A stretch of 64,000 nucleotides of DNA from Mycobacteriales bacterium (GTDB taxonomy: Bacteria > Actinomycetota > Actinomycetes > Mycobacteriales > SCTD01), in the NCBI GenBank assembly GCA_030697205.1, contig JAUYQP010000034.1, positions 1-64,000 of the forward strand, in the 5' to 3' direction. The position numbers and the translations under genes were made by a program. Below, in pieces: positions 58,383 to 60,617 of the stretch (positions within the stretch are counted from its first letter, which is position 1; every line of letters begins with the position of its first letter). Under the pieces are notes generated by a model. That model had not been told where the DNA came from and did not search any database. It worked only from the letters and a program-made list of their open reading frames with translations.

Positions 58383-59330
58383 TCAGTCGTCGGTGTCGGG
58401 CTCGTCGGGCTCGTCGTCGGAGCCGCTGCCGCTGGAGTCGTCGGTGCGGTCGTCGGAGTCGTCGGGCTCGTCGGCCTCGTCGTCGGAGTCACTGTCCGAG
58501 CCGCTGCCGCTACCCGAGCCGCTCGAGGTCGAGTCGTCGCTGTCGTCGGACTCGCGGTCATCGAACTCGCGGTCGTCGGAGTCGTCACTGCTGTCATCGC
58601 TGCTGTCGTCGCTGCCGCGGCCCGAGTTGTCGTCGGAGTCATCAGAATCGGAGTCGTCGTCGGAGTCGTCGTCGCTCGGGGTGGGCTTCGGCGTGGGCGC
58701 CTCGGTGGACCGGGTCGTGACCGGGGGCGCGATCGTCTCGACCGGCGTCGGGGCGTCTTCGTCCAGCGAGTCGTCATCCGTGGCGTCGTCGTCGCGGGTC
58801 GGGAGGTCCCAAGGCGTCAGCGCGTTGACGGTGCCGGCGACCGCGGTCTGCGCCGGGCCGGGCAGCGCGTTGGCCGCGGCGGCCCCGACGAGCGAAGCGG
58901 CCAGCGCCGCCGCGACCGACGCGGCGAGCGCGGCGACCCGGCGGCGTCCGCGGGGGGCGGCCGGGCTGACGACGGCCTGCAACCCCGACGGCAGCGCGAC
59001 CTCGCCCGAGGGCAGCGCGAGCACCGAGGTCGGGTCGGCCTGCGACCACGTCACGGCGGCCGGCGCGGCCGCCGTGACGTGACCGATCGCCTCGACGCCG
59101 AGGGGGGACGGAGCGTCGAGACCGATGAAGGCGGCCAGGGCCGCGGAGGGCGCGACGGGTGCCGCGGTCGAGGCGGCGCGCAGCTCGGCGAGCAGTTCGC
59201 TCAAGCCGGGCTCGCCGGGGACCGATCGTCCTGACAGCAGGGATTCCACCGCCCGGTCGTCGAGCCCGGCGGTGTCGTCTGCGTCGCGGAAGTCGGTCAT
59301 CTCAGGGCTGTCATCGTCGGAGTGGCTCAC
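58383..59330 (-). CDS. putative membrane anti-sigma protein with Asp/Ser tail
   Basis: This 315-residue protein overlaps the stop of the sigma factor gene (GTGA), so it is coupled to it. A cytoplasmic N-terminal part (1 to about 120) would bind the sigma factor. One membrane segment lies at about 130-155 (VAALAASVAAALAASLVGAA). The rest lies outside: a Pro/Thr linker and about 110 residues made almost only of Asp, Ser, Gly and Glu (SDDDSDDDSDSDD type). The acidic tail could bind calcium or the wall. No ZAS zinc motif is seen. The order sigma then anti-sigma is typical. Confidence 0.65.
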   Translation of the reverse strand: MSHSDDDSPEMTDFRDADDTAGLDDRAVESLLSGRSVPGEPGLSELLAELRAASTAAPVAPSAALAAFIGLDAPSPLGVEAIGHVTAAAPAAVTWSQADPTSVLALPSGEVALPSGLQAVVSPAAPRGRRRVAALAASVAAALAASLVGAAAANALPGPAQTAVAGTVNALTPWDLPTRDDDATDDDSLDEDAPTPVETIAPPVTTRSTEAPTPKPTPSDDDSDDDSDSDDSDDNSGRGSDDSSDDSSDDSDDREFDDRESDDSDDSTSSGSGSGSGSDSDSDDEADEPDDSDDRTDDSSGSGSDDEPDEPDTDD

Positions 59331-59872
59331 GGGGTTACGCCCCGGTCCGCGAGCTGCGCCTTCAGCGCCAGCAGCCCGCGCCGCTGCAGCTGCTTGACCG
59401 AGCCCTGCGACCGGCCCATCGCGGCCGCGACCTGCTCGACGGACAGATCACCCACCAGGCGCATGAGCAGCACGTCGCGCTGGTCGTCCGGGAGCGAGGA
59501 GAGGATCCGGCGTACGCCGTCGACCTCCAGCGACGCGAGCGCCTCCTGCTCGGCGGACGGTGCGGTGCGGGTGTCGTGGTGGGGCTCGAGCTCGACGGTG
59601 GGCTGGCGGCGGGACTGGCGGCGCAGGTCGTCGACGAGGCGCGCGTGGGCGATCGCGAAGGTCAGCGTCCGCAGGCCCGCCACCCCGCCGGTGACGCCCG
59701 GCAGCCGGGGGAACAGCGCGAGGAACACCTCGCTGGTCAGGTCGTCGGGCTCGAGCGCGCCCCGGCCGCGCAGGTAGCCGGCGACCTGCGGCGCGAGCGT
59801 CTCCCACACGACCCGCAGGGCCCAGGGCTCGCCGAGGCGGGCGGCCTCCCAGGCGTCCTCGAGCGCGGTCAC
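59327..59872 (-). CDS. ECF-type sigma factor
   Basis: This 181-residue ECF sigma factor has region 2 (EPDDLTSEVFLALFPRLPGV, LRTLTFAIAHARLVDDLRRQ) and region 4 (LPDDQRDVLLMRLVGDLSVE then QVAAAMGRSQGSVKQLQRRG). The frame stays open to 59962, but a perfect hairpin lies at 59910-59940 inside that extension, so I use the GTG at 59872, which begins just before region 2. Neither start has a clear ribosome site. It is followed by an anti-sigma-like gene with a 4-base overlap. Confidence 0.82.
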   Translation of the reverse strand: MTALEDAWEAARLGEPWALRVVWETLAPQVAGYLRGRGALEPDDLTSEVFLALFPRLPGVTGGVAGLRTLTFAIAHARLVDDLRRQSRRQPTVELEPHHDTRTAPSAEQEALASLEVDGVRRILSSLPDDQRDVLLMRLVGDLSVEQVAAAMGRSQGSVKQLQRRGLLALKAQLADRGVTP

Positions 59873-59909
59873 GCTGCGAGTGTGCGGCCTGGCCTGCCCG
59901 GGCACGCGA

Positions 59910-59940
59910 GGGAGCCGGACCTCGGTGAGGTCCGGCTCCC
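59910..59940. terminator. perfect 14-bp hairpin
   Basis: GGGAGCCGGACCTC (59910-59923) pairs exactly with 59927-59940 around GGT. It lies 69 bases past the stop of the acidic-tail gene and 38 bases before the sigma start, so it is probably a terminator. It could also attenuate the sigma gene. Confidence 0.65.
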
Positions 59941-60008
59941 TGCGCGGTTCGGGCGCGGTCACGCTCTGCGGCTCAGTCGCTCAGGCGGGCGCGGGCGTCG
60001 TACGCGGG

Positions 60009-60617
60009 TCAGTCCTCGTCGCTGTCGTCGTCGTCCTCGTCAGCGTCGCTGTCGTCGTCGCTGTCGTCGTCCTCGTCAGCGTCCTCGTCAGCGTCGTCCT
60101 CGTCGTCGTCGCTGTCGTCGCTGTCGTCGTCGCTGTCGCGGGAGTCGTCGTCACGGTCGTCCGAGTCGTCGTCGTCCTCGCGGGAGTCGTCGTCACGGTC
60201 GTCGCTGTCGTCGTCGTCCTCGCGGGCGTCGTCCTCGGCCTCCTCGGCAGCCTTCGCGGCGGCCTTGGCGGCGTCCTTCGCGGCCTTCTCAGCGGCCTTC
60301 TGCTCGGCCTCGGCAGCCTTCGCCGCTGCCTTGGCGGCGTCCTCAGCAGCCTTCGCGGCAGCCTTCGCCTCGGCCTCGGCGGCCTTCTCGGCAGCCTCGC
60401 GGGCGTCCTCGGCAGCGTCGTCCGCGTCGTCGTCGCTGTCGTCGACCGTGCTGACCGTGACCGTCTGCGGCCCGCTGAACGGGTTGTCCACCGGCACCAC
60501 GCCCGCGGCCGCACCCGCGCCGAGGGTCGTCACGGTCGCGACGCCGGCGACGGTGGTCTTGACGAGCAGGCCGCCGGTGGCGAGCTTGGTGATGAGGATC
60601 TCGACGAGGGGGAGCAC
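60009..60617 (-). CDS. membrane or exported protein with Ala/Lys coiled coil and Asp/Ser tail
   Basis: This 202-residue protein has a hydrophobic N-terminal segment (about 3-42: LPLVEILITKLATGGLLVKT then TVAGVATVTTLGAGAAAGVV), then PVDNPFSGP. Next is an Ala/Lys/Glu helical repeat (about 65-125, units like AAKAAEDAAKAAAKAAEAE). The last 75 residues are Asp/Ser/Glu (DDDSDDRDDDS type). No family is recognised. The same kind of tail ends the anti-sigma-like protein 0.7 kb downstream, so the three genes may form one surface-stress or structural system. The GTG at 60617 is the only start that keeps the first segment. Confidence 0.55.
   Translation of the reverse strand: MLPLVEILITKLATGGLLVKTTVAGVATVTTLGAGAAAGVVPVDNPFSGPQTVTVSTVDDSDDDADDAAEDAREAAEKAAEAEAKAAAKAAEDAAKAAAKAAEAEQKAAEKAAKDAAKAAAKAAEEAEDDAREDDDDSDDRDDDSREDDDDSDDRDDDSRDSDDDSDDSDDDEDDADEDADEDDDSDDDSDADEDDDDSDED

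Follow-up and report, generated by a model that had tools for sequence, protein, structure and literature searches.

A three-gene locus on the minus strand of the window (the whole stretch of 64,000 nucleotides analysed here) is best explained as an autoregulated, envelope-sensing ECF sigma factor module. It would work in the manner of the sigma-D/RsdA system and have the third protein as its main output. The probability of this reading as a whole is put at about 0.5. That the three genes form a module with co-regulation and autoregulation is very probable. By analogy to known systems, sensing would probably proceed by proteolysis of a tail outside the cell, and a feedback role of the third protein is proposed tentatively. 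The features of the locus are as follows.

60693..60719, minus strand: putative promoter P1 before the third gene (-35 CGTAACCC at 60719-60712, 15-nt spacer, -10 CGAT at 60696-60693)
60009..60617, minus strand: third gene, 202 aa, with N-terminal hydrophobic span, Ala/Lys/Glu helix and Asp-rich tail; third-type genes of relatives lie directly upstream of sigma
60219..60425, minus strand: one long helix predicted for residues 65-133 of the third protein (single-sequence AlphaFold2, core pLDDT 86-95)
59910..59940, minus strand: hairpin GGGAGCCGGACCT-CACCG-AGGTCCGGCTCCC between third and sigma genes, attenuator- or terminator-like, no U tract
59327..59872, minus strand: ECF sigma factor, 181 aa from GTG 59872 (ORF open to 59962), from Pfam, NCBIfam, homologues and tree
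59313..59339, minus strand: putative promoter P2 (-35 at 59339-59332, -10 CGAT at 59316-59313), across the sigma 3' end and ahead of the anti-sigma gene
58383..59300, minus strand: anti-sigma-like protein, 305 aa from ATG 59300 (alternative GTG 59330), of a type that adjoins sigma in 126 of 127 loci
59127..59258, minus strand: predicted cytosolic helical domain of the anti-sigma-like protein, residues 15-58, presumed to bind sigma (structure model, alignment)
58875..58943, minus strand: predicted membrane span, residues 120-142 (predicted helix)
58386..58799, minus strand: outer Asp/Ser-rich low-complexity tail of the anti-sigma-like protein (composition)

Genes and proteins of the locus

The three ORFs occupy 58383-60617, as read in the preliminary description. 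Transcription runs from the third gene (60617-60009), which is the first gene of the operon, through the ECF sigma gene (59872-59327) to the gene of the one-span anti-sigma-like protein (59300-58383). The sigma ORF is open to 59962, and its start is placed at GTG 59872, not 59962, because homologues place it there. When transcribed from its own promoter P2, the anti-sigma gene most likely starts at ATG 59300. The alternative GTG 59330 overlaps the sigma stop, lies upstream of the P2 -10 element and could be used on the long transcript.

The sigma protein scores above the cut-offs of Pfam Sigma70_r4 (47.6 bits, cut-off 24.1) and of the NCBIfam sigma70-ECF whole-protein model (66.8 bits, cut-off 42.9), and below that of Sigma70_r2 (20.2 bits, cut-off 24). 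With sigma-70 regions 2 and 4 and without the rest, it is by sequence an ECF sigma factor, as had been proposed. In an order-wide search its close relatives reach about 200 bits or more against the sigma profile, and the next paralogues at most 128. The profile search locates members of this group in Arthrobacter and its allies, Microbacteriaceae, Nocardioides, Phycicoccus, Jatrophihabitans, Blastococcus and other Geodermatophilaceae, as well as in uncultured Frankiales belonging to the family of the window. Of the 127 loci with a sigma relative, 126 have an anti-sigma-type ORF immediately after the sigma gene. The exception is G029 (locus L217), a member of the sigma group with no recognisable anti-sigma gene downstream, and this is counted against the best explanation.

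A third-type gene is located directly upstream of the sigma gene in the window and in seven other genomes of its family (G001, G005, G007, G009, G015, G018, and G019; eight copies, two of them in G015). The same holds for two Blastococcus, Phycicoccus, Jatrophihabitans, and many Arthrobacter; in one lineage the gene is found after the anti-sigma gene. The preliminary description had linked the three genes and named their joint occurrence elsewhere as a check. They occur together from Arthrobacter to Nocardioides and Jatrophihabitans, and this recurrence supports the link. An Arthrobacter-like locus is also found under the title Vibrio cholerae 35D (L058, WNZI01000008.1), probably a mislabelled or contaminated assembly.

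The anti-sigma-like protein has one hydrophobic span preceded by RGRRR, and this Arg-rich stretch implies that the N-terminus is inside and the tail outside. The part after the span is about 138 residues long (36% D, 22% S, 7% E), in agreement with the one-span protein with an outer Asp/Ser tail described before. Three helices are predicted in the cytosolic head (residues 15-22, 31-44, and 53-58; pLDDT 82-91). This head, which ends in a P-P-SAALA-type motif, is the best conserved part of the alignment of anti-sigmas. The protein matches no Pfam family at E<=1; for the head, sequence searches of Pfam, NCBIfam and PDB found nothing and Foldseek gave no PDB match.

The third protein consists of an N-terminal hydrophobic span, a helix of Ala, Lys and Glu residues (65-133) and an Asp-rich tail. 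The Ala/Lys coiled coil and acidic tail noted earlier correspond to this predicted helix and tail. The single-sequence model places no membrane helix at the N-terminus, where its confidence is low, and this too is counted against the best explanation. Neither of the two tailed proteins scores above any Pfam family cut-off. Weak NCBIfam matches of the third protein to adenylate kinase, gliding proteins and TolA were rejected as products of Ala/Lys-helix composition.

Other features are found around the operon. Downstream on the same strand, 51363-56813 encodes a very large secreted protein with bacterial Ig-like and fibronectin III domains. Four intergenic copies of a palindromic repeat of 66 nt (core TGTCGGCGCTAC-N11-GCGCCGACA) are located at 58278-58343, 60755-60820, 60837-60902, and 62117-62182. 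Allowing up to one mismatch, the own genome has the repeat at eight places, half of which lie in this 4-kb stretch, and 20 related genomes have none. From its translation, 63443-63998 holds a probable AbrB-type antitoxin gene followed by a PIN-domain-like toxin gene that runs off the window.

Promoters and hairpin of the operon

Judged from their upstream elements, the third, sigma and anti-sigma genes look like they are made from promoters resembling the sigma factor's own. Both P1 and P2 match the sigma-D promoter class (-35 GTAAC, -10 (C)GAT, about 17 nt between them; consensus in PMC6338062). The pattern CGTAACCC-N15-CGATNNC has exactly two zero-mismatch sites in the 4.0 Mb of the own genome, 60719-60690 and 59339-59310, and the reversed pattern has none in the whole genome. 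Two exact promoters at the own locus, one before the third gene and one before the anti-sigma gene, are counted for an autoregulated module. Zero-mismatch sites in other genomes are likewise at the locus: two in G007 and one each in the Blastococcus genomes G152 and G307. The spacer is 15 nt long; a pattern with 16 nt gave only noise.

The same arrangement is seen in relatives. In an initial comparison of eight genomes, every one has CGTA[AC]CCC-N15-CGAT ahead of its third gene. Outside the Geodermatophilaceae, a looser form occurs upstream in the sense direction in 64 of 88 loci (other strand 7, reversed 0), and each of the seven divergent matches precedes an exported-type ORF. Of these 88 loci, 27 have GTA[AC]C-N17-CGAT no more than 100 nt from the sigma end (other strand 0, reversed 0). 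The loci, 676 kb in all, contain 95 promoter matches, of which 89 fall between -1500 and +60 relative to the sigma end. No P1 or P2 was found in most members of the group from Geodermatophilaceae; autoregulation is therefore not universal, and this is counted against the best explanation. In several Arthrobacter (L074, L102, L109, L110, and L115) an extra promoter of the class is located after the anti-sigma gene, 700-930 bases past the sigma end. No exported gene stands directly behind it; a CoA-binding-type gene follows in L109 and L110.

The -35 element of P2 doubles as coding sequence of the sigma C-terminus, and from its position P2 would drive the anti-sigma gene alone. Its -10 element sits only 12 bases before the anti-sigma ATG, and the message is therefore likely to be leaderless or nearly leaderless. 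A strong hairpin is found between the third and sigma genes in 26 of 27 loci, with different, unrelated sequences. Because of this hairpin, the message of the third gene could exceed that of sigma.

Comparison with known sigma and anti-sigma systems

Sigma-D is held by RsdA, which is cut by MarP and then by Rip1 on envelope stress. The outer domain of RsdA (about 160 residues) is disordered and has been proposed to be a wall sensor, like that of RsgI (PMC11175481). The earlier statement that no known ECF group has such tails is therefore not supported as worded. In C. glutamicum the sigma-D promoter consists of GTAAC(A/G) and GAT, and 37 of 38 Corynebacterium species have PrsdA (GTAAC-15nt-CTCGAT) ahead of rsdA (PMC6338062). 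Sigma-D is ECF40 by ECFfinder (PMC5508688).

The module resembles this cell-envelope stress switch of Mycobacterium and Corynebacterium in several ways, and one may ask if it is simply the organism's sigma-D/RsdA system. The promoter class and its spacing are the same (PMC6338062). In the known systems the promoter is located before the anti-sigma gene in C. glutamicum and before the sigma gene in mycobacteria, Rhodococcus and Nocardia; most of the canonical SigD loci compared carry it upstream of sigD. The gene order is also the same, sigma followed by a one-span anti-sigma with a long low-complexity or disordered outer tail, and long low-complexity tails are found in the RsdA-type proteins beside SigD-family sigmas in the loci compared. 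The anti-sigma head gives a weak profile match to the sigma-binding segment of RsdA (hhalign probability 66% over 33 columns). This value includes the spans, however, and falls to 1% for the cytosolic parts only, and PF16751 (RsdA_SigD_bd) has no match at the window locus in a genome search. The sigma factor itself scores 84 bits against the SigD/ShbA model NF007230, far below the 209-bit cut-off and no better than paralogues in its own genome. In the tree the sigma group (34 rows) is one clade with support 99/93, outside the NF007230 rows, and G005 and G019 have both kinds of sigma, a member of this group and SigD. Identity with sigma-D/RsdA is therefore very improbable: the module is like the SigD-RsdA switch, yet by cut-off and tree its sigma factor is not SigD.

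The two systems differ in other respects. The window operon is led by the third gene and has, besides P1, an extra promoter inside the sigma 3' end. Known sigma-D regulons contain many envelope genes, whereas exact promoter matches in the window genome are found at the own locus only. What is new beside the likeness, as far as sequences tell, is the co-regulated and co-varying third protein, along with the negative outcome of two sequence tests of membership.

Two other systems have similar parts. In SigI/RsgI of Bacillus the anti-sigma also has a disordered outer region proposed to be a wall sensor (PMC11175481); the window protein, with no Pfam match at E<=1, shows no match to an RsgI domain, and homology is not claimed. 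Zinc-binding class I anti-sigmas (e.g., RsrA) likewise have a small helical sigma-binding head (predicted for the window protein) beside an ECF sigma, but Cys is entirely absent from the window protein, which hence has no HxxxCxxC zinc motif. A search of open-licence papers found no description of this sigma/anti-sigma/third group. Within that literature the module appears to be previously undescribed; the sigma group may have an existing ECF group number.

Outer tails and the role of the third protein

The two tails are extreme in composition. The highest D+E per 100-residue stretch is 0.48 in the anti-sigma and 0.62 in the third protein, compared with at most 0.29 in other sampled proteins, and the highest D+S is 0.70 and 0.59, compared with at most 0.24 (146 proteins, about 39,000 residues of the own genome). 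Such values are therefore neither chance nor a general habit of the sampled part of the genome. Across loci the D+E of the tails ranges from 3% to 49% (0.03-0.49), with the window tails at the extreme, and Asp/Ser richness was rejected as a conserved feature. What is conserved is low complexity and length (near 100-220 residues). Since acidity is not conserved, calcium binding, suggested earlier for the acidic tails, cannot be the general mechanism. For acidic members, binding of calcium or cationic wall polymers is possible, with RTX and TSP3 relatives as indirect support.

Wide variation of composition at near-constant length could also reflect neutral low-complexity drift, produced as triplets slip in GC-rich DNA, and the tails would then matter for their length alone; the DNA encoding both of them is indeed full of GTC/GAC-type repeats. 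Among the proteins sampled from the genome, however, only these two have such tails, and tails are present in all groups inspected. Also against drift, the composition of the two tails co-varies: the raw correlation of D+E is r 0.90 (28 pairs), and phylogenetic contrasts give r=0.60 for D+E (p 7e-4), r 0.73 for Gly and r 0.51 for His (n=27). Neutral drift is accordingly a very improbable explanation. The contrasts give no co-variation for Pro, Ala or Glu alone, and k-mer likeness of the two tails, though strong elsewhere, is lacking in Arthrobacter (3-mer p 0.77); both points are counted against the best explanation.

In Arthrobacter, Phycicoccus, Jatrophihabitans, Blastococcus, and the family of the window, a third-type gene with a promoter of the same class lies ahead of sigma or facing it. 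In Jatrophihabitantaceae-type genomes, Nocardioides, and G029, a gene divergent from sigma has the same promoter class, and its product carries a signal for export and ends in an acidic low-complexity stretch. The divergent gene of G029 encodes RTX calcium repeats (PF00353, 4e-22). That of Nocardioides encodes an Asp-rich protein with TSP3-like repeats (2.7e-4, which does not reach the curated cut-off), and a D/S/E-rich anti-sigma tail accompanies it.

The chief rival to the feedback reading is that the third protein is simply an effector, an exported low-complexity and often cation-binding polymer for the wall or the exterior. Sigma would deploy it upon envelope or divalent-cation disturbance, and the likeness of the tails would reflect life in the same wall. 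This has a substantial, though less than even, chance of being right. Besides the module itself, the own genome has the third gene as its sole exact target, the divergent genes under the same promoter encode exported low-complexity proteins, and the placement of the hairpin favours large amounts of the third protein. A few third proteins seem to be secreted and cleaved (Arthrobacter ...LANAA|Q). This would suit an effector no less than a feedback partner, and it is counted against the best explanation.

A pure effector predicts neither the co-variation of tails nor a motif common to third proteins and anti-sigma tails. Such a motif is found: the 34-residue outer motif FGQSVAxDARxGGVxGxEIS..., taken from the g6 third proteins of family f1, matches four third proteins and 17 anti-sigmas and nothing else among 8328 ORFs from the loci. 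These 17 anti-sigmas come from Geodermatophilaceae without a separate third gene ahead of sigma, and they combine anchor, motif and anti-sigma head within one protein. By a fusion-type argument, a third-type anchor and motif inside an anti-sigma suggest that the third protein and the anti-sigma cooperate. The shared motif and the co-variation are counted for the relatedness of the two proteins.

In the feedback reading, the membrane anti-sigma would hold sigma by its N-terminal helices, with its disordered tail in the cell wall. Envelope disturbance would lead to cutting of the tail and then to processing by a site-2 protease (a homologue is found in the own genome, G000:C11), and sigma would be freed. 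Free sigma would produce much third protein and new anti-sigma, with the hairpin limiting read-through into sigma. The third protein, exported or membrane-bound and similar to the anti-sigma in its type of anchor and the chemistry of its tail, may feed back on the anti-sigma by occupying the wall ligand or the protease of the latter. The response would be reset when enough tail polymer is present in the wall.

It is conceivable, though rather unlikely, that these modules form a separate class of actinobacterial envelope switch. The disordered outer tail of the anti-sigma and a second one, matched in chemistry, on an abundant exported partner made from the sigma factor's own promoter would then jointly read the state of the wall or its cations, with the partner as both output and feedback ligand. 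The module is conserved and testable in many soil actinobacteria, and its sigma factor, inhibitor, promoter and main target can be named from sequence. The module also offers a clean case for studying how disordered anti-sigma tails sense the cell wall, because many tail chemistries occur in one frame, each with a co-varying partner.
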